From Rickettsiales bacterium (lineage in GTDB: Bacteria; Pseudomonadota; Alphaproteobacteria; Rs-D84; CACZYB01): DNA of 15,823 bases. The first letter of the stretch is position 1; every line of letters begins with the position of its first letter. A program made the translations under genes and the position numbers. This document shows, in pieces, positions 7,190 through 15,823 of the stretch. Below the pieces are notes generated by a model, which was not told the DNA's origin, did no database searches, and saw nothing but the letters and a program-made list of their open reading frames with translations. Location: positions 1 to 15,823 of the forward strand of contig JAISNH010000107.1 in NCBI GenBank assembly GCA_031276335.1, in the 5' to 3' direction.

Positions 7190-8759
<1,570 letters not shown>

Positions 8760-8763
<4 letters not shown>

Positions 8764-9152
8764 AGATGGAGCTTGAAATAATCACACCTCTGGAAATCGT
8801 CCGCGTGGACGGGGTGGACTCGGTGTCGGCCGAGGGGCTGGAGGGCGGATTTACGATACTGCCGCGCCACGGCGACTATGTGTCCGCGCTGTCGGTGTCG
8901 ATTTTTTCGTTCCGCCGCGGGCGGGAGGAGGTTTTCTTCGGCCTGGACGAGGGCGTTCTGACCAAGGTTGGGCGGAAGGTTGCCGTTTCGGCGCATGCCG
9001 CCGTCCGGGGTAAATCGCTTTCCGATCTTAGGCGCGAGATGGAGCGGCACGAGCGCGAGCTCGACGAGGGCGAGATAAAGACGAAGATGGCGCTGGCCTC
9101 GCTGGAGGGTGGCATCGCGCACCTTATGCTTGAGCTGAAGGAGCAGGGCTGA
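8760..9152 (+). CDS. atpC: N-type ATPase subunit epsilon
   Basis: Epsilon is part of the central rotor stalk and links gamma to the c ring. The 130-residue protein has the N-terminal beta-sandwich (LEIITPLEIVRVDGVDSVSA, then EGGFTILPRHGDYVSAL near 27-43) and a C-terminal helical region (about 85-128, SLSDLRREMERHERELDEG). Both are as expected for epsilon. The ATG at 8760 is used because it overlaps the micro-ORF stop. An in-frame ATG two codons later is an alternative. Its stop TGA shares one base with the atpQ ATG. Confidence 0.93.
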
Positions 9153-9490
9153 TGCAAAGGAAGGGAAGCATACGGCACAGGAGGAACGCGCGCTCCGATT
9201 CCGAGCTGAAGCGTCTCGTCTGCCGAAAGATTGAAAGCCGCGCCCGCAGGAAGGACCCCGGGGAGGAGGCGGTATGGTACGCTTTTTCTTTCCTGGGTCT
9301 GGTCGGGTGGAACATCGTCGTTCCGACGGCGCTCCTTACCTGGCTCGGGGTTACGCTCGACCGGAAGTACGGTTTAAGCGAGGTGCGGCTTGCCCCCCTG
9401 TTCATAATGCTCGGGCTGGCCGTCGGCGCGTACAACTCCTGCCGCTGGATAAGCGGAGAGAACAGGAAGATAGGAAGGGGGCGGAGATGA
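9152..9490 (+). CDS. atpQ: N-ATPase accessory membrane protein AtpQ (AtpI-like)
   Basis: AtpQ is a small membrane protein found in N-ATPase operons and related to the AtpI-type assembly factors of ordinary F-ATPases. The 112 residues consist of a basic N-terminus (about 1-38, many Arg/Lys), a membrane segment at about 41-67 (AVWYAFSFLGLVGWNIVVP), a short loop with LDRKYG, a second segment at about 79-97 (RLAPLFIMLGLAVGAYNS) and a basic tail. Identification rests on topology, size and position between atpC and atpR. It overlaps atpC by one base and atpR by four. It probably helps c-ring assembly, by analogy with AtpI. Confidence 0.85.
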   Translation: MQRKGSIRHRRNARSDSELKRLVCRKIESRARRKDPGEEAVWYAFSFLGLVGWNIVVPTALLTWLGVTLDRKYGLSEVRLAPLFIMLGLAVGAYNSCRWISGENRKIGRGRR

Positions 9491-9774
9491 TGTATGCGGC
9501 TTTTGCCATTTCGGGTTTTGCGTGCGGGCTCGCCTATTTCGGATCCGTCTGGAAAAGCGCGCGCCGCGCTTCCGCTGGCGCCTCAAGCGCCGCCCGGGCG
9601 CGCTTGGATTTTTTGTTGCGCCTCTCCGTCCTTGGGTGCGCCGCGTATGTCGCGCTCAGGCATGCTGGGGCGGTTGGGGGCGGCTGGCCTCTTATGCTTG
9701 CCGGGCTTGCGGGATTTGTGATTGGAAAGATAGTCGTGATATGGAGGGTGCGCCGTGAACATGAATCCCGATGA
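9487..9774 (+). CDS. atpR: N-ATPase accessory membrane protein AtpR
   Basis: AtpR is a small hydrophobic protein specific to N-ATPase operons. Its role is unproven, although an ion-supply or assembly role with the c ring has been suggested. The 95 residues form three likely membrane segments: about 4-22, 42-58 and 66-87. Charged residues lie in the connecting loop (SARRASAGASS) and in the tail (RVRREHESR). The start is the ATG at 9487, which overlaps the atpQ stop (ATGA) and has a GGAAGGGGGCGG Shine-Dalgarno just upstream. A second ATG follows directly. The longer upstream open frame overlaps atpQ and is not used. The 3' end overlaps atpB by 20 nt. Confidence 0.85.
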   Translation: MMYAAFAISGFACGLAYFGSVWKSARRASAGASSAARARLDFLLRLSVLGCAAYVALRHAGAVGGGWPLMLAGLAGFVIGKIVVIWRVRREHESR

Positions 9775-10522
9775 CATAATCGTGGCGAGCCTGCCCGTGA
9801 AGCTGTTCGGGCGCGCGTTCGCGTTCGACGTCAGCATGACGCTTGCCGGCACGTGGATCGTCATGGCCTTCATATTCGTGTTCTTCCGGCATGTGACGAG
9901 GAATTTTTCGCCGGATTTCAGGATGACGCGGATGCAGGGCGCTCTCGAGGCCGTGGTGATTTTCTTCCGCGACCAGGTGGAGAGCATGACCGGGCGCCGC
10001 GCGGGCGGCGTGCTGTATCTGGTCATGAGCCTGTTCGTGTTCATACTGGTTGCGAACTGGAGCGCGCTTCTGCCGATTCCGTTTCCGGTCGAGGGCGGGA
10101 CAAGGTGGTACGCGCCGCCGACCGCCTCGCTTTCGACGGCGGCCGCGCTTGCGATCGTGGTGATGTGCTCGGTCGTTTTCTACGGCGTTCGCGGCAAAAG
10201 CCTGGGGGGCTATCTCGGGAAGTTTTTCGAACCCGTGTTCGTACTGCTGCCGATAAACGTTCTGGGCGACCTTTCGAACGGTATGTCGCTTGCCGTCAGG
10301 CTGTATGGGAATGTTATGAGCGCGCAGATGCTGGTCGGGATGCTGTTCGCCTTCGCGCCGTTCGTATTGCCTGGGCTGATGGGGATTTTCGGGCTGGTGT
10401 CGGGCACGATACAGCCGTACATTTTCGCGACCCTCGCCGCCGTGTACATAAGCGCGGGTCTCGGCGAGGCGACCGATAGTGAAAGGGAGGAGCTGGAGCG
10501 GCTCCGCCTGCAAAGGGTTTAA
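9755..10522 (+). CDS. atpB: N-type ATPase subunit a (membrane stator)
   Basis: Subunit a forms the ion half-channels next to the rotating c ring. The 255-residue protein has about five membrane segments. The essential stator arginine is R182 in LSNGMSLAVRLYGNVMSAQM (173-192). The partner glutamine is Q220 in SGTIQPYIFATLAAVYIS. Family residues such as ANWSALLP (100-107) are present. The GTG at 9755 is the preferred start because GGAGGG ends 6 nt before it. The ATG at 9761 is the alternative but would be 12 nt away. It overlaps atpR by 20 nt, so translation is probably coupled. Confidence 0.95.
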   Translation: MNMNPDDIIVASLPVKLFGRAFAFDVSMTLAGTWIVMAFIFVFFRHVTRNFSPDFRMTRMQGALEAVVIFFRDQVESMTGRRAGGVLYLVMSLFVFILVANWSALLPIPFPVEGGTRWYAPPTASLSTAAALAIVVMCSVVFYGVRGKSLGGYLGKFFEPVFVLLPINVLGDLSNGMSLAVRLYGNVMSAQMLVGMLFAFAPFVLPGLMGIFGLVSGTIQPYIFATLAAVYISAGLGEATDSEREELERLRLQRV

Positions 10523-10543
10523 CAACAAGGAAAGGAGAAAGAA

Positions 10544-10825
10544 ATGGATACAGGAATGATATGGGTTGCGGTTGCATCGATCGCGGCCTCCGGCCTCGCG
10601 GTTACGGTATGCGGGCTGTTTTCGTCGGTGGCGGAGGGGCGCGTCGTGGAAAAGGCGCTCGTCTCGATGGCGCAGCAGCCGGACGAGGCCGGCGGGATAA
10701 GGAACACGATGTTCGTGTCGATGGCCATGCTGGAAAGCTGCGCGATATACGCGCTTCTGCTGGCGATGATACTGATATTCTCGAACCCGTTCTGGAACTA
10801 CGCGGTCGAGCACGCGGCAAGGTAG
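10544..10825 (+). CDS. atpE: N-type ATPase subunit c (rotor ring)
   Basis: Subunit c forms the ion-carrying rotor. The 93 residues make two membrane helices (about 5-38 and 55-82) joined by the loop QQPDEAGGI. Helix 2 carries MLESCAIY, where E64, S65 and Y69 match the Na+-ligand residues E65, S66 and Y70 of Ilyobacter tartaricus. Aligned on the loop proline, helix 1 has E31 where I. tartaricus has the ligand Q32, so the site has two carboxylates. This is a known N-ATPase trait, and the similar Burkholderia pseudomallei c17 ring has been reported as proton-specific. The loop arginine of E. coli (RQP) is Q44 here. The glycine-repeat positions of helix 1 read G24, F26, S28, A30, G32. A strong Shine-Dalgarno (AAGGAAAGGAG) precedes the ATG, fitting the high copy number of c. 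Confidence 0.96.
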   Translation: MDTGMIWVAVASIAASGLAVTVCGLFSSVAEGRVVEKALVSMAQQPDEAGGIRNTMFVSMAMLESCAIYALLLAMILIFSNPFWNYAVEHAAR

Positions 10826-10833
10826 GGGGCTAG

Positions 10834-11628
10834 ATGGGCATCGACTGGACGACAGTGCTGTTTCAAATCCTGAACTTCGTAATCGTGGTTCTGATACTTC
10901 GGCGCTACCTGTTCCATCCCGTCCTTTCCGCGATGGAGCGCCGCGACAGGGCGATATCCGACAGGCTCCGGCAGGCGGAAAGGCTTGCCGGGGAGGCCGA
11001 GGCGGAAAGGGCCGCGCTTCAGGCGGAGCGCGCCATGCTGGAGGAAGAAAGGGAGGCGGCCGTGAAGTCCGCGCGGACGGCCGCCGAAGCCGAGTCGCGG
11101 GAGCTGCTCAAGTCGTTCAGGCGCGCCATGCAGTCGCGCCAGCGCGCCTTCGACGGCAGCCTGAAGGAGGAGAGGGAGGCGCTGAGAAAATCCGTCGCCG
11201 CGATCGCCGGCCGTACTATTTTCGATACCGTCGCCTCCGCGCTGTCCGGCCTGGCGGGCGCCTCTGTCGAGGAGGCGGTGCTTGAAAGCTTCATTTCCCG
11301 GCTGGAGCAGGGGCGCGTGGAAAAGCTCCGCGAGCTTAGGCGCTATTACGATGAATCCGGAAAGATCGCCGTCGTGTCGTCGTTCAGGATCGGCGCGGCG
11401 AAACGCATGAGGATCTGGCGCGCGCTTGCCTCCCTGCTGGGGCGAAGGAAGATCGAAAGGCTCGCCTTCCGCCTCGACGGGAAAATCCTCTGCGGGCTGG
11501 AGCTGGTCTGCGATTCGCTTGTCATCGGCTTCGGTATGGACGCGTATCTGGCGCGGTTCGGCGAAAACCTCGACGCCGCGATCGCCTCGGCTATGGATTT
11601 GAAGAAACCCGTGAAACGAAAGGGATAG
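10834..11628 (+). CDS. atpF: N-type ATPase subunit b with delta-like C-terminus
   Basis: Subunit b is the peripheral stalk that holds the head against rotation. The 264 residues are much longer than the roughly 156 of E. coli b. An N-terminal membrane segment (about 8-25, VLFQILNFVIVVLILRRYLF) is followed by a long charged coiled-coil region (about 35-130, rich in RAALQAERAMLEEEREA-type heptads). A globular C-terminal part contains KILCGLELVCDSLVIGFGMD and AYLARF (about 219-245), resembling the end of subunit delta. No separate atpH is present, so this b probably does the job of both b and delta, as in other N-ATPases. It starts 8 nt after atpE and ends 6 nt before atpA. Confidence 0.92.
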   Translation: MGIDWTTVLFQILNFVIVVLILRRYLFHPVLSAMERRDRAISDRLRQAERLAGEAEAERAALQAERAMLEEEREAAVKSARTAAEAESRELLKSFRRAMQSRQRAFDGSLKEEREALRKSVAAIAGRTIFDTVASALSGLAGASVEEAVLESFISRLEQGRVEKLRELRRYYDESGKIAVVSSFRIGAAKRMRIWRALASLLGRRKIERLAFRLDGKILCGLELVCDSLVIGFGMDAYLARFGENLDAAIASAMDLKKPVKRKG

Positions 11629-11634
11629 GAAAAT

Positions 11635-13140
11635 ATGCTGAAGGAAACTGTAAGGGGGGCGCTTAGGGGTGCAAGGGCGGCGGCGCGGCGGACCCGTCCC
11701 CGTCCCGTTGCGCGCGAAATCGGCCGCGTGGTGGAGGTTGCGGGCGGCGTGGTCACGGCCTCCGGGCTTTCCTCCGTTCGCATGTCCGAACTTGTCGAGG
11801 TCGGCGGCCGCATGGGTATGGTGATCGGGCTTGCCGAAAAAACCGCCGGCATCGCGATGCTCGCCTCCTCAAGCGGCATATCCGCCGGCGACAGGGTCGC
11901 GCGGACCGGTCGGCTGAACGACGTTCCGGTCGGGCGCGGGCTTCTGGGGCGCGTGGTCAATCCCTTGGGCGAGCCGATTGACGGCGGCCCGGAAATCGAG
12001 GCGGCCGAACGGTACGATATAGAGCGTCCCGCCCCCCCGATTATAGAGCGCGCGGCGGTCGCGGCCCCGCTTGTCACGGGGATAAAGGCGATCGACGCGG
12101 TCATCCCCATCGGCCGGGGCCAGCGCGAGCTGATACTCGGCGACCGGCAGACGGGCAAGACCGCGATTGCGCTGGACGCCATGCTTGCGCAGAAGGATAC
12201 CGGCGTCATATGCGTTTATTGCGCGATCGGGGGGCGTACCGATTCCGTGGCCAGGGTCGTGGACGTCCTGCGCCGGAAGGGCTGCATGAAGCATACTGTC
12301 GTCATGGCCGCCGGCGGCGAGGAGGAGCCGGGCCTCTTGTACATCGCGCCGTACGCCGCGACTTCGATTGCCGAATATTTCATGGAGCGGCATAAAAAGG
12401 ACGTGCTGATCGTCTACGACAACCTGACCGCGCACGCGCAGGCCTACAGGCAGCTTTCCTTGACGCTCCGCCGCCCCATGGGTCGCGAGGCCTATCCGGG
12501 CGACATATTCTACATCCATTCGCGGCTTCTGGAGCGCGCGACGCATTTGAAGCGTGGCGGCTCGATTACCGCGCTGCCGGTTTGCGAAACGCAGGCCGAA
12601 AACATCTCCGCCTATATTCCGACCAACCTGATTTCCATTACCGACGGCCAGATTTTCTTGACCGGCGCGCTGTTCGCCAAGGGGGTTATTCCGGCCGTCG
12701 ACATCGGGGTTTCGGTTTCCCGCGTCGGCTCGAAGGCGCAGCTTCCGGCCTACAAGGCGGTCGCGGGCGACATGAAGATTTCGTATTCGCAGTTCGAGGA
12801 GCTGGAGGCCTTCGCCAAGTTCGGCACGCAGCTGGACGAGGCGACGCGGAGCTCGCTTGCCCGCGGCGAGCGGATTCGCGAAACGCTGAAGCAGCCGGCG
12901 CTTGAGCCCATTCCGGCGGGACTTCAGGTCGTGGCGATATGCGCGGTCAACTCCGGCGCGCTCGACGACGTGCCGTTGGAAAGGATCGCGCCCCTGCACT
13001 CCGAGCTGCTTGCGCGGGCGTCGCGCGAGCTGCGTGCCGAGCTCTCCGGAATCGATTCTGGCGCCCCCCTTGCCGCCGGGACCAGGCGCGATATCGAGAA
13101 GCTCGCGGCCAGGGTCGCGGCCAAATATAGGAAAGGATAG
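11635..13140 (+). CDS. atpA: N-type ATPase subunit alpha
   Basis: Alpha alternates with beta in the head and supplies the arginine finger to the catalytic sites. The 501 residues start with a short basic N-terminus (about 1-25, LRGARAAARRTRPRP) where F-type alpha has the delta-binding segment. The P-loop is GDRQTGKT (169-176). IVYDNLTAHAQAYRQLSL (259-276) and GREAYPGDIFYIHSRLLER (283-301) follow. The arginine finger is R363 in VDIGVSVSRVGSKAQ. The helical C-terminal domain runs to a basic end. The altered N-terminus is consistent with loss of the delta subunit. The atpG start follows the stop by 1 nt. Confidence 0.96.
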   Translation: MLKETVRGALRGARAAARRTRPRPVAREIGRVVEVAGGVVTASGLSSVRMSELVEVGGRMGMVIGLAEKTAGIAMLASSSGISAGDRVARTGRLNDVPVGRGLLGRVVNPLGEPIDGGPEIEAAERYDIERPAPPIIERAAVAAPLVTGIKAIDAVIPIGRGQRELILGDRQTGKTAIALDAMLAQKDTGVICVYCAIGGRTDSVARVVDVLRRKGCMKHTVVMAAGGEEEPGLLYIAPYAATSIAEYFMERHKKDVLIVYDNLTAHAQAYRQLSLTLRRPMGREAYPGDIFYIHSRLLERATHLKRGGSITALPVCETQAENISAYIPTNLISITDGQIFLTGALFAKGVIPAVDIGVSVSRVGSKAQLPAYKAVAGDMKISYSQFEELEAFAKFGTQLDEATRSSLARGERIRETLKQPALEPIPAGLQVVAICAVNSGALDDVPLERIAPLHSELLARASRELRAELSGIDSGAPLAAGTRRDIEKLAARVAAKYRKG

Positions 13141-13141
13141 C

Positions 13142-14053
13142 ATGCGGACGCTGGAGGGACTGAAGCGGCGGATTAAAACCACGAACTCGCTTAAGGGCAT
13201 AGTGTCCGGCATGAAGACGCTGGCGACCGTCAGCCTGGAGGGTTACTCGCGCTCCGCTGCCGCCGGCTCGGCCTACCTTAGGAACGTCGAGCTCGCGCTC
13301 GAGGGCGTCTTGAAGGAGCGTCCGGCAAGCCTAGTTCCCCCGCGGGAGGACGCGCCGCAGGTGCTCGCCCTAATCGTCGGTTCCGACCAGGGGCTGGTTG
13401 GGCGTTTCAACAAGCAGGTAGTACTGCACGCCTTCGACTTCCTTTCGCGCCGCGGAATAGGGGCCTCGGATGCGACTCTTCTCGCCGCGGGGAAAAGCCT
13501 GTCGGCGAAGATAGTTGCGGAGGGGCGCGACATCGACACCCTGTTCGGCATGCCGGGCTCGGCCAGGATGATTCCGTCGGTCGCCAAGAAGATAATAATG
13601 CGTTTGGGCGAGCTGACCGGCGGGTTTTCGCGCGGCGGGAATTCCAGCCCGGCCGACGCCCCCGCGCGCGTGTACATTTTCCACAACAGGAGGGAGGGCG
13701 ACGGCTTCAAGAGCCAGTCCACGCGGCTGCTTCCGGTCGATGAGAGGTTCCTGCGCTCGCTTGGAGCCCGGCGCTGGCCGTCGAAGAACGTTCCGTTCCA
13801 CCGGGCGGAGCGTCCCGCGCTCCTGTCCGCCTTCGTGCGCGAGCTGCTGTTCATCGGGGTGTACAGGGTTATTTCCGAAAGCCTTTCCGCCGAGCATTTC
13901 ATCCGCATGATGACCATGAAGAACGCCGAGAAGAACATCGGCGATCAGCTGGATGCGATGAACCTTGAATACCGCACCCGCCGCCAGGCCGAGATTACCG
14001 AGGAGCTTATCGACGTCGTGGCGGGAGCCGAGGTATTGAGGGGCAAGGCGTAA
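13142..14053 (+). CDS. atpG: N-type ATPase subunit gamma
   Basis: Gamma is the central rotating shaft. The 303-residue protein begins with the usual helix (LEGLKRRIKTTNSLKGIVSGMKTLATVSL, where the GMKTLA part matches AMKMVA of other gammas). The core carries LIVGSDQGLVGRFN (77-90). It ends with the second coiled-coil strand, MMTMKNAEKNIGDQLDAM and EYRTRRQAEITEELIDVVAGAEVL. The start is the ATG at 13142, chosen because AGGAAAGGA lies just upstream in the end of atpA. The longer upstream frame is a shadow inside atpA. It is the last gene of the operon. No clear terminator follows, so some readthrough into the next unit is possible. Confidence 0.95.
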   Translation: MRTLEGLKRRIKTTNSLKGIVSGMKTLATVSLEGYSRSAAAGSAYLRNVELALEGVLKERPASLVPPREDAPQVLALIVGSDQGLVGRFNKQVVLHAFDFLSRRGIGASDATLLAAGKSLSAKIVAEGRDIDTLFGMPGSARMIPSVAKKIIMRLGELTGGFSRGGNSSPADAPARVYIFHNRREGDGFKSQSTRLLPVDERFLRSLGARRWPSKNVPFHRAERPALLSAFVRELLFIGVYRVISESLSAEHFIRMMTMKNAEKNIGDQLDAMNLEYRTRRQAEITEELIDVVAGAEVLRGKA

Positions 14054-14070
14054 GAATTCCAAAATAATTG

Positions 14071-14099
14071 TTGTACGCGGTGCGGAAATGGTATATAAT
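14071..14099 (+). promoter_or_regulatory. Promoter for the structured leader and secreted-protein genes
   Basis: A perfect -10 TATAAT (14094-14099) lies 17 nt after TTGTAC (14071-14076), which matches the -35 consensus at only 3 of 6 positions. Initiation would be near 14106. The promoter starts 18 nt after the atpG stop and separates the two secreted-protein genes from the atp operon. Confidence 0.6.
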
Positions 14100-14105
14100 T
14101 CCACC

Positions 14106-14310
14106 GTATCCATAAAGGGTGCCGAGGCGTCGAAGCCTTCGTAATTAGCAAGTGCCGATATGACACTTAAACCTCATATCCCCGTATTCCACGGGGAGTC
14201 TTCAGCGCATGTACAGGGAGAAATCCTAAAGGCTGGAGAGGTCATTGCTAATTATGATTCTTTGAACTCCCCGCTCTTTGTGGAACATGGAAACCACAAA
14301 GGAGAAAAGT
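14106..14310 (+). ncRNA. Structured 5' leader with competing helices (candidate cis-regulatory RNA)
   Basis: This 205-nt region has no supported protein gene but much pairing potential. A 10-bp perfect helix joins TAATTAGCAA (14142-14151) and TTGCTAATTA (14245-14254), extendable by three pairs to 14139/14257. Inside it, CCCCGT (14180-14185) pairs with ACGGGG (14191-14196), and GGGA-GAAA-TCCT (14216-14227) forms a GNRA-capped stem. Outside it, a small stem GAGGC/GCCTT lies at 14124-14139. Two strands have alternative partners. CGGGGAGT (14192-14199) can instead pair with ACTCCCCG (14266-14273). CTTTGTGGA (14276-14284) can pair with TCCATAAAG (14109-14117) at the 5' end instead of with the ribosome binding site. 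I do not recognise a known riboswitch class, and RNA thermometer or protein-binding leader are alternatives. Confidence 0.5.
14274..14304 (+). promoter_or_regulatory. Hairpin masking the Shine-Dalgarno
   Basis: CTTTGTGG (14276-14283) pairs perfectly with CCACAAAG (14294-14301) around a 10-nt loop, and pairing can extend to 14274/14304 with one bulged G. The right arm holds most of the Shine-Dalgarno AAAGGAG (14298-14304), which sits 6 nt before the ATG at 14311. When folded, the hairpin should reduce translation. Confidence 0.6.
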
Positions 14311-15207
14311 ATGAAAACCACGATAAGCGCCGCCGCCTTGGCATTTGCCTTGCTGGGTGGAATGCCGGGACATGCATTGGGGCAGGAGGTAAAACTATCC
14401 CAAAAAGCCAAAATACTAGAGGCGACATGCCGGGATATATGGGATAAGATAGGGAAATTACGCGATGCGGACGGGACTAATCCTCCACGGGGGCAAAGGG
14501 GTTCTTATCATGGAAGCAATACTCAAGATATAATGGATGAAGAGTGTGTTGGAAAGGACGGATTGAAATACCTGGAAAAAGTGATAGAGGATTCCTACAA
14601 GACGTTGCAGGATGAGCGCGCGACCGCCGCCCACAGGGAAGAAGTCTCGAAAATCATGGTAAAGGCAATTGAAGCCCAAACTCTTTCGGCCACCTTGGAA
14701 GTCGCTGAGATGCTTATGGAAAGCCCGCGCTACAAAGACCTGCCGCAAGTCAAAGAGCTGGAAACTAAGCTAACCGGCGACTTTTGGGATGGCGGCTCGA
14801 AAATGCGAATTACCGAATACATATTTGAAATAGTTTCAACATTCTCCGAATTTCGCGACATGTCACACATTGACTGCTACAGGGCAAGGGGTGGTGGTGG
14901 CTATTCCGGCTGGTGGAAAATAGAGGGCGAGGGCTACTCATGTCCGGATTTATTTTTTGATCTGAATGGATCTACCTCCGAATCCATTTCGTGCCGTGCC
15001 GTAGATTTCGACCTGTCAAAGCTGAAAGAGTTCCCTTATGAAGGTTGCCCGATAGAAACCGGTAAGAGTGACTTGGGTGAACTATACATATCCAACTGCC
15101 CTGCCTTGGTCGACATTATTGTCGAACAAGCTAAACGGTATCAGCCCAATTTCACCAAAGGCGAATTCGTCTTTTGCGTGGAAGAATCTAAAAATAGCAA
15201 TAAATAG
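14311..15207 (+). CDS. Secreted eight-cysteine protein of unknown function
   Basis: I do not recognise this 298-residue protein. A signal peptide is clear: K2, a hydrophobic core at about 5-17, and likely cleavage after A22-L-G24. The mature part begins as a helical charged region (about 30-150). It then becomes Gly/Tyr/Trp-rich (GGGGYSGWW near 195-202) with acidic strands to the end. The mature protein has eight cysteines (40, 79, 189, 211, 228, 246, 263 and 289), which would suit four disulfides in an oxidising compartment. The ATG at 14311 is chosen because it has AAAGGAG 6 nt upstream and starts the signal peptide. In-frame ATG 14287 and TTG 14278 lie inside the masking hairpin. The gene is visibly more AT-rich than the atp genes and uses more AAA, GAA and ATA codons, which hints at separate history. 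Export to periplasm, outer membrane or host is likely. Confidence 0.8.
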   Translation: MKTTISAAALAFALLGGMPGHALGQEVKLSQKAKILEATCRDIWDKIGKLRDADGTNPPRGQRGSYHGSNTQDIMDEECVGKDGLKYLEKVIEDSYKTLQDERATAAHREEVSKIMVKAIEAQTLSATLEVAEMLMESPRYKDLPQVKELETKLTGDFWDGGSKMRITEYIFEIVSTFSEFRDMSHIDCYRARGGGGYSGWWKIEGEGYSCPDLFFDLNGSTSESISCRAVDFDLSKLKEFPYEGCPIETGKSDLGELYISNCPALVDIIVEQAKRYQPNFTKGEFVFCVEESKNSNK

Positions 15208-15224: not shown

Positions 15225-15823
15225 ATGAGCAGGAAATTTTCAGCAAGCATGCTAGTGGCGGTAGGATTCATCATAAACGGACAGGATGCGCTTGCTTCGA
15301 TCAGCGAAATAAAAAGCCGATACGTATTCTCGCAGCAAAAGGCGCGGGAATTTTGCACCGGTCTGTCCGGGAAAATCGACCAGGTGAAGATAATGGCCGG
15401 AATTTCGACGGCGGCCAGCGGGGTCGGAACGCTTGCGGCCGGCACGGCTCTCGTGACCGGAGTGATGAAGGCCAACCTGGACAAGAGCATCGCAAAGAAC
15501 AAAAGCGGCGTGGATACCATACTTGAAATTCGGGAAAGCGGCGGCATAACGCCGGAAAACATTTCCAAGGTAAGGCAAGCCCTGCAAGAAATCAGCGATG
15601 CCAAAAACGAACTTGGAACCGAACTTTCGCCGGAGCAGAAGAAATCCGCCAAGCTGGGCACGGTACGGACGGTAGGCTCGTTTGTTGCCGGGGGCACGTC
15701 GGCGGCCTCGGCCGTCACCTCGTTCATAGGCATGGACCAGCTGGACAAGCTGGCCTCCGACATGGACGAGTGCAGCACCGCCATATCCGAGATCAAGTAC
15801 CACCGGGCCGAGCTGGAGGCCGA
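15225..15823 (+). CDS. Secreted protein with two Gly/Ala-rich hydrophobic segments (cut by window end)
   Basis: I do not recognise this protein. The first 199 codons are visible and the frame runs open past the window end. A signal peptide is present, with R3-K4, a hydrophobic core and an ALA site at A22-A24. Two hydrophobic, small-residue-rich segments follow: one at about 56-80 (AGISTAASGVGTLAAGTALV) and another at about 145-170 (VGSFVAGGTSAASAVTSFIG). Each is followed by a similar short motif (NLDKSIA and QLDKLAS), which suggests an internal duplication. Charged helical stretches lie between and after them. Cysteines occur at 43 (AREFC) and 183. The ATG at 15225 has AAGGAG about 6-7 nt upstream and lies 17 nt after the preceding gene, so the two are probably one operon. 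Glycine-zipper-like segments could insert in or bind membranes, but this is inference. Confidence 0.75.
   Translation, partial: MSRKFSASMLVAVGFIINGQDALASISEIKSRYVFSQQKAREFCTGLSGKIDQVKIMAGISTAASGVGTLAAGTALVTGVMKANLDKSIAKNKSGVDTILEIRESGGITPENISKVRQALQEISDAKNELGTELSPEQKKSAKLGTVRTVGSFVAGGTSAASAVTSFIGMDQLDKLASDMDECSTAISEIKYHRAELEA

Follow-up and report, generated by a model that had tools for sequence, protein, structure and literature searches.

Positions 7205–14053 of the window (the whole stretch of 15,823 nt analysed here) carry what we take to be an F-type ATP synthase gene set, whose order, with beta and epsilon first, recalls the N-ATPase operon. It is followed by a leader rich in helices and by a gene for a 298-aa protein (Table 1), for which scans against Pfam, PADLOC and PHROG found nothing at the limits applied. 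Immediately 3′ of this gene lies a second one (15225–15821) with a signal-peptide-like start by eye, and the genes 14311–15207 and 15225–15821 probably share one operon. A consensus promoter scan of the leader found no complete promoter; judging from the sequence, transcription would start near 14105. No terminator was found in the leader.

Table 1. Features of the leader and the downstream gene in the window.
Feature	Position	Strand	Basis
−10-like hexamer TATAAT	14094–14099	+	seen by eye
Outer helix, 5′ strand (partner 14274–14284)	14109–14119	+	sequence; family support z 7.5, n = 74
Hairpin P0, a1 in loop 14129–14134	14124–14139	+	predicted fold
b1 strand (partner b′ 14245–14257)	14139–14151	+	pair probability 0.97–0.98
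Hairpin P3 (14180–14185 with 14191–14196), competitor of stem PA	14180–14196	+	z 5.6 and predicted folds
Stem PA (C4 outer stem), 5′ strand	14192–14198	+	family alignment/covariation; predicted probability 0.00 in the window alone
Stem P4, GNRA tip 14220–14223	14199–14239	+	9/9 stem pairs with two-sided changes
P4 internal loop AUGUACA / AAA	14209–14215 / 14228–14230	+	loop letters in 80 elements
Stem P5 (14241–14245 with 14254–14258)	14241–14258	+	covariation and flank matching
P5 loop b′ UGCUAAUU	14246–14253	+	covariation and flank matching
a′ in the joiner between P5 and PA	14260–14265	+	joiner–flank matching
Stem PA, 3′ strand CUCCCCG	14267–14273	+	covariation
Two-partner strand, pairing with 14109–14119 (5′ end) or 14294–14301 (SD side)	14274–14284	+	family test
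SD-side partner CCACAAAG (14294–14301) and Shine–Dalgarno AGGAG (14300–14304)	14294–14304	+	sequence
Gene 3′ of the leader, 298 aa; start resembling a signal peptide (by eye)	14311–15207	+	sequence and protein scans

All the pairings named in the initial annotation are present in the window sequence where they had been placed. The anti-Shine–Dalgarno (anti-SD) strand has two partners: CTTTGTGGA (14276–14284) pairs with TCCATAAAG (14109–14117) through 8 Watson–Crick pairs and one G-U, extendable to 14119/14274, and CTTTGTGG (14276–14283) forms 8 pairs with CCACAAAG (14294–14301) in the SD hairpin. The second choice, proposed between an internal hairpin and ACTCCCCG, can also be read in the sequence, since ACGGGG (14191–14196) finds a partner either locally in 14180–14185 or in CCCCG within 14266–14273; it corresponds to the local hairpin P3 versus PA, the outer stem of a C4-type RNA. 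The closing helix, given as 10 to 13 bp, comprises 13 pairs (14139–14151/14245–14257). In addition, a1 (UCGAAG, 14130–14135) and a′ (CUUUGA, 14260–14265) form 5 Watson–Crick pairs and one G-U, and the joiner of the window could pair with the SD too, by UUCUUUG with CAAAGGA.

The leader folds well by computation. For 14104–14330 (227 nt), the predicted energy was −74.8 kcal/mol versus −55.4 (sd 4.4) for shuffles (z −4.45, 0/200), and in the ensemble the helix 14139–14151/14245–14257 had a probability of 0.975, the helix of the 5′ end with the anti-SD strand 0.945, P3 0.939 and the SD hairpin 0.006. Eighteen folds of the leader with varied ends were predicted. The pairing of b1 with b′ kept a probability of 0.97–0.98 in all of them, with a1–a′ beside it at 0.90–0.97, while the SD hairpin did not exceed 0.22 and PA stayed at 0.00. 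The probability of the outer helix hangs on the 3′ cut: it was 0.95–1.00 for ends up to 14330, 0.00–0.22 at 14351 and 0.63–0.94 at 14400. Thus, in predicted folds, the three-way junction described below is not the favoured fold of the window by itself. The nested C4 fold lies 13.4 kcal/mol above the best fold at 37 °C; this computed preference for the docked fold, in which a1–b1 would pair with a′–b′, takes neither pseudoknots nor cotranscriptional folding into account.

A search of the own genome with the window leader gave two more copies and one partial match, plus weak matches, and the copies found in this way have the core CATGTNCAGGGAGNNATCCTAAAG in common. Used as a pattern with at most 3 mismatches, this core was found once in one genome (G004) and three times in another (G007), i.e., in 2 of 10 other genomes of the same family. 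A shortened core pattern led to two viral contigs, and a looser one gave 11 matches in named genomes: in two, Pleomorphomonas koreensis and a Sphingomonadaceae MAG, the fold could be seen by eye, four were the G004 and G007 copies again, and five, L034 among them, were discarded by eye as chance. Elements of G007 and G004 met again (L028, L030, L033 and L035) were counted once, and six loci (L022, L029, L031, L032, L034 and L037) were discarded by eye as chance before counting. A covariance model built for the element family, R1, matched five of these six in the loop part only (22–25 positions) and L034 over its full length (28.3 bits, E 3.8e-5), so L034 may be a weak true member that was wrongly discarded.

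A plasmid BLAST search with the Sphingomonadaceae copy (L036) led to three Shinella plasmids, the same kind of search with the window leader gave no match, and no match to L036 was found in the phage collection. L039 was omitted because its core is identical to that of L038; L040 was omitted for a group II intron in its 5′ part, its core scoring 88.6 bits with R1, on par with L038 and L039. On this Shinella plasmid (NZ_CP132306.1), the element immediately follows a gene for a group II intron reverse transcriptase, and homology to sister elements begins only at the b1 region.

Among 385 genomes of the class, 54 had R1 matches with E ≤ 0.01, and among 299 genomes of the phylum, 43 had matches with E ≤ 0.001; both sets are samples of larger groups. 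The own assembly (746 kb, 77% complete) holds 11 element copies, of which 10 came from the class search and one (C14:907–1003) from the phylum search; another genome, G500, holds 10. For comparison, 81 R1 matches from 79 chosen loci, a subset of the class-wide matches, were aligned, of which 80 are distinct. At one locus (L056:1382–1468 and 1501–1588), two R1 elements stand with 32 nt between them.

Covariation in homologous leaders, the check proposed in the initial annotation, was found. Twelve elements were aligned by MAFFT from sequence, and a structure of 25 pairs was drawn by hand on those same sequences; in this set, 93.7% of cells were paired versus 77.3% after shuffling, the shuffles, like the permutations used below, ignoring kinship among the elements. 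Two-sided changes occurred in 17 of the 25 core pairs (9.3 in shuffles), with 51 such cells versus 15.6, and on each of five measures 0/500 shuffles reached the core. When partners were slid by 1–3 columns, core pairing dropped to 40–53%. The family covariation supports a three-way junction made of an outer stem (PA), a tetraloop hairpin (P4) and a variable-loop hairpin (P5). The internal loop of P4 reads AUGUNCA in 79 of 80 elements and AAA in all 80, while the stems vary freely; this constancy is partly conditioned, as R1 and the seed pattern contain the loop.

Two other causes of conservation were considered. An open reading frame at 14160–14447 has a peptide-like stretch in common with the copy on contig C94; it was rejected as coding because most changes are non-silent by eye and pairing accounts for the conservation. 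CsrA-type binding to GGA in the tip was dropped because the sequence of the P4 tip varies.

The two segments presented by the core match the region upstream of their own element. Over the 80 elements, the P5 loop (b′) scored 17.95 with its own upstream flank and 11.67 with permuted flanks (z 26, 0/2000), and the joiner between P5 and PA (a′) scored 15.44 and 11.49, respectively (z 17, 0/2000). Since the upstream flanks lie outside R1, this result is not built in. Furthermore, a1 lies 5′ of b1 with a gap of 3–14 nt in 65 of 80 elements (counted within 0–30), whereas the control with swapped joiners gave a mean of 23.3 and a maximum of 33. The window is among the 15 elements outside this count because a1 at 14130–14135 is not its best-scoring joiner site. 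By this matching, the upstream segment is a1–b1; the joiner contains a′, and the P5 loop contains b′. The closing helix of the initial annotation is b1–b′. Hairpin P3 also stood above permuted values (14.39 versus 13.57, z 5.6, 0/2000).

The two-partner strand was followed through 74 of the 80 elements; in the six left out, b1 was weak or the flank too short. Both of its pairings, as claimed for the window, have support across the family: the outer 5′ helix scored 14.26 versus 12.18 permuted, and the SD-side pairing 14.23 versus 12.86 (0/4000 each). In the window's own family (n = 14), the outer helix was supported (0/4000), and the SD-side pairing was not significant (230/4000). The clearest sister cases are G000:C40 (L077) and G007:C41 (L019), where both pairings are kept with different letters. 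In predicted folds of these two and of G000:C90, however, the docked duplex is accompanied by a hairpin that holds the SD, which speaks against a strict coupling of docking to SD release.

A start codon follows the element at 20–75 nt in 73 of 80 cases (median 48; 79 assigned), as found by a scripted rule that favours near starts and covers 150 nt only. SD scores were 11.7 3′ of the elements (n = 79) versus 7.7 in the control direction (n = 60), and open reading frames of at least 100 aa were present in 61/80 versus 12/80. The pairings, the core and this position before start codons are established by comparison among the elements.

What stands between core and start codon differs among relatives. 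Nine elements, chosen by eye after the joiner and loop matching had been seen, carry a2 behind PA and b2 at the SD; in these, the loop matched the SD window (z 5.6) and the joiner the 90 nt behind (z 5.2; 0/2000 each). At the SD of the window b2 is absent, and with it the b′–b2 complementarity of the C4 antisense RNA (RF01695), so the defining C4 antisense step is lacking in this copy. A terminator-like hairpin stands directly 3′ of PA in 30 of 80 elements (letter shuffles: mean 1.0, maximum 3), and by position 28 of these 30 stems begin within the last one or two letters of the PA 3′ strand. For the 70 elements without obvious a2–b2, the PA 3′ strand scored 12.17 with its own SD window versus 11.64 permuted (3/2000) and the joiner 10.69 versus 9.95 (5/2000); the loop was not above permuted values (161/2000). 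In the own family (n = 15), joiner–SD complementarity was no better than permuted (1288/2000). The sequences are best read as a family with exchangeable outputs, namely an SD hairpin, as in the window, a segment antisense to the SD, or a terminator that follows the core. Elsewhere in the same genome, a leader at G000:C113:3051–3094 (L011:1552–1595) resembles the SD region of the window; by eye, it keeps an outer helix of TGCAAAGG with CCTTTTGCA, plus a TATAAT box, and no R1 core was found in it. It is perhaps a natural deletion that left the output part alone.

The genes behind the elements are diverse. Seventy of the 79 assigned downstream proteins were scanned, nine short or doubtful ones being omitted. 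Among the matches listed, Pfam gave outer-membrane beta-barrels (6), HTH_3 (6), glycosyltransferase 2 (in 3) and DUF4268 (in 2), with DNA methyltransferases, HNH and ORF6N as singles; PADLOC gave the candidate defence system PDC-S11 in 2 together with restriction and methyltransferase models; and PHROGs gave repressors, a GtrB-like protein and a DNA methyltransferase. At the RF02221 loci compared (L111–L130), several downstream genes look like what we take to be phage antirepressors of the BRO-N or KilA-N type, and the stretch just before such a gene is matched by loop and joiner.

With Rfam at the gathering thresholds, no family was found on the window or on the first nine loci. At E ≤ 10, the window gave three implausible matches, neither RF01695 nor RF02221 (sRNA-Xcc1, gathering score 53) being among them, and no Rfam riboswitch matched the window element. 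RF01695 had no match in the own genome, and the copy C14 reached 35.1 bits with RF02221, below its gathering score. The RF02221 model matched 5 of 20 R1 loci on the element, all sub-threshold (E 0.0074–0.4), and the best RF02221 match among R1 loci had 37.2 bits and E 2.3e-5 in a 201-base search. In the opposite direction, R1 matched, at the same place, 6 of 30 RF02221 loci: E was ≤ 0.0013 for four and 0.11 and 0.28 for the other two, and the remaining 24 loci gave no match. Both models met at one place in seven loci (G663:C26, G667:C300, G645:C8, G621:C20, G621:C235, G597:C9 and G000:C14), all below the RF02221 cut-off. By these reciprocal and shared matches, the family is homologous to sRNA-Xcc1, the window copy itself being without a match. 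The Rfam search suggested in the initial annotation thus leaves the window under every threshold and links its relatives to RF02221 sub-threshold. The statement that no known class was recognisable is not supported: the core is a relative of sRNA-Xcc1, set in the a1–b1 and three-way-junction layout of C4 antisense RNA.

R1 matched none of 20 C4 elements or the c4 of phage P1; its sole match there (L160:405–493) is a separate element about 1 kb before the C4 element L160:1501–1588. With no C4 element matched by R1, it is the layout and the a/b design that speak for kinship with C4 proper. The GenBank record of phage P1 has the order a1, b1, c4, a2, b2 and then icd, with a1 and b1 marked putative, and we confirmed the complementarity of a1, b1, a2 and b2 to c4. 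In RF01695, a′ and b′ match both sides in the 19 elements tested of 20 fetched (four tests, 0/2000 each). In RF02221, 21 elements from 20 of the 30 fetched loci match on both sides (four tests, 0/2000 each), the scripted placement of the P5 loop being wrong in some, e.g., L119. The complementarity of a′ and b′ to an upstream a1–b1, typical of C4, is found in the window's family as well, and in the window itself b1 is strong and a1 weak by score. One locus (L128:1501–1586 and 2780–2867) has two RF02221 elements about 1.2 kb apart, and the copy number of RF01695 is very high in two genomes (27 matches in G632 and 14 in G646).

According to one study, C4 RNA consists of the stems P1, P2 and P3 with the loops a′ and b′; RNase P cleaves it on the 5′ side of P1, ribosome binding sites are partly covered by b′, and A. 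baumannii has 21 similar sRNAs (PMC5320573). A table of Weinberg 2010 lists 'c4 antisense RNA' together with 'c4-a1b1' (PMC2864571); from its name, the latter would be the upstream a1–b1 segment. A further source places sRNA-Xcc1 5′ of symE in integron cassettes (PMC12444791).

Based on these results, the reading we favour, with some reserve, is that the window leader contains an antisense RNA module of the C4 type, which would act as a switch in cis for the downstream gene; that the element is a C4/sRNA-Xcc1-like structured RNA is more certain than the full mechanism. The core (PA, P4 and P5) would fold like phage C4 RNA and present b′ in the P5 loop and a′ in the joiner. In the docked fold, a1–b1 would pair with a′–b′, P3 would replace PA, and the 5′ end would hold 14274–14284, leaving the SD free and the gene on. 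In the C4 fold, PA and P5 would form, the 5′ end would be released, and 14276–14283 could pair with the SD side, turning the gene off. In relatives, the output may instead take the phage P1 form, with a2–b2 located at the SD, or consist of a terminator immediately 3′ of PA. Candidates for the trigger of the flip are an RNase P cut before PA, as in P1, an RNA acting in trans or a factor bound by the internal loop. We infer which fold is on, the coupling of docking to SD release, the action in cis and the trigger from this arrangement. The near-invariance of the internal loop of P4 makes a ligand possible.

Among other explanations, an element that is itself the gene of a C4-like trans-acting small RNA, with the downstream gene reached only by read-through, is unlikely but has several points behind it. 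Terminator-like hairpins stand directly behind PA in the 30 elements counted above. Also, two papers describe sRNA-Xcc1 as cloned and seen as a single Northern band of about 100 nt, mapped at 88 nt (PMC2996969), and C4-like RNAs of A. baumannii as abundant and seemingly processed (PMC5320573). However, the distance to SD-bearing starts is narrow (73/80 at 20–75 nt, by the rule that favours near starts), a′ and b′ fit the flanks of their own element far better than foreign ones, and the window offers no terminator. By the title of its 2011 paper, sRNA-Xcc1 is reportedly a trans-acting sRNA.

We regard it as quite improbable that the leader is a riboswitch proper, in which the AUGUNCA/AAA loop binds a ligand or protein and thereby sets PA versus P3. 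The constancy of the loop letters (79 and 80 of 80, partly conditioned by model and seed) beside freely varying stems would suit such a sensor, as would the exchangeable expression platforms, but the downstream genes (outer-membrane proteins, HTH regulators, glycosyltransferases, methyltransferases and nucleases) have no common pathway, and a conserved loop could instead serve folding or processing. The initial annotation had left the choice between riboswitch and RNA thermometer; its notion of a leader with shared strands able to hide or free the SD stands, and the thermometer is unlikely. A hairpin hiding the SD before a gene for a secreted protein (by eye) would fit a thermometer, yet no Rfam thermometer matched the window, the gap between both folds, 15.5 kcal/mol at 20 °C, is still 13.1 kcal/mol at 42 °C (computed energies only), and the conserved a1–b1 and P4 loop would have no role, so we consider it very improbable. 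Chance inverted repeats without function, a reading to which the SD-side hairpin, short and weakly supported in its own family, would lend itself if taken alone, are refuted by covariation for the core and b1–b′, and flank matching, a1–b1 spacing and the two-partner test leave them next to no probability.

The cis-switch reading can be carried further, although this extension is itself doubtful: a phage-type antisense RNA may have been domesticated as a general sensory leader, in which the AUGUNCA/AAA loop would read a signal, the a1–b1/a′–b′ lock would store the state, and the output platform would be swapped from gene to gene. If this is true, the family would form a new class of riboswitch-like leaders serving accessory, surface and defence genes, and sRNA-Xcc1 would belong to it instead of being a purely trans-acting sRNA. 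The comparison joins the separately described C4 and sRNA-Xcc1 and a large family below the Rfam thresholds into one design. It suggests that phages' antisense immunity device was turned into a modular leader of accessory genes, and it predicts action in cis, on the next gene, for RNAs of the sRNA-Xcc1 type. What the upstream a1–b1 does, a segment only putative in the P1 record, becomes testable. In open-licence literature (subscription journals lying outside the search), 'C4 antisense RNA' never appeared alongside 'alphaproteobacteria'; sRNA-Xcc1 and C4 antisense RNA were co-mentioned in one paper, as separate Rfam hits, and 'c4-a1b1' occurred in one paper.

Compared with the C4 RNA of P1 and P7 (RF01695), the window's family has the same succession of a1–b1, a core of outer stem, tetraloop hairpin and variable-loop hairpin, and then a gene, with a′ in the joiner and, in some lineages, many copies per genome. 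It differs in that the C4 covariance model does not match it and in the long conserved internal loop of P4, not seen in the C4 elements compared. The window itself lacks a2–b2 and has its SD under a hairpin with a competing 5′ strand. As to downstream genes, one of the ORF6N antirepressor type was found among the matches listed for the 70 proteins. The likeness to sRNA-Xcc1 (RF02221), the integron-cassette sRNA of Xanthomonas, extends to the order of stems, an internal loop in P4 and a GNRA-type tip, and sRNA-Xcc1 elements also have a1–b1 5′ and a2–b2 3′ of the core; by eye, the internal loop letters are AAUACAACA/GAAUA in sRNA-Xcc1 versus AUGUNCA/AAA in the family. With translational and transcriptional riboswitches, the family shares a conserved core joined to exchangeable expression platforms. 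Unlike them, it has no known ligand or shared metabolic gene, and its recognition segments are base-pairing arms whose complements lie in their own flanks.
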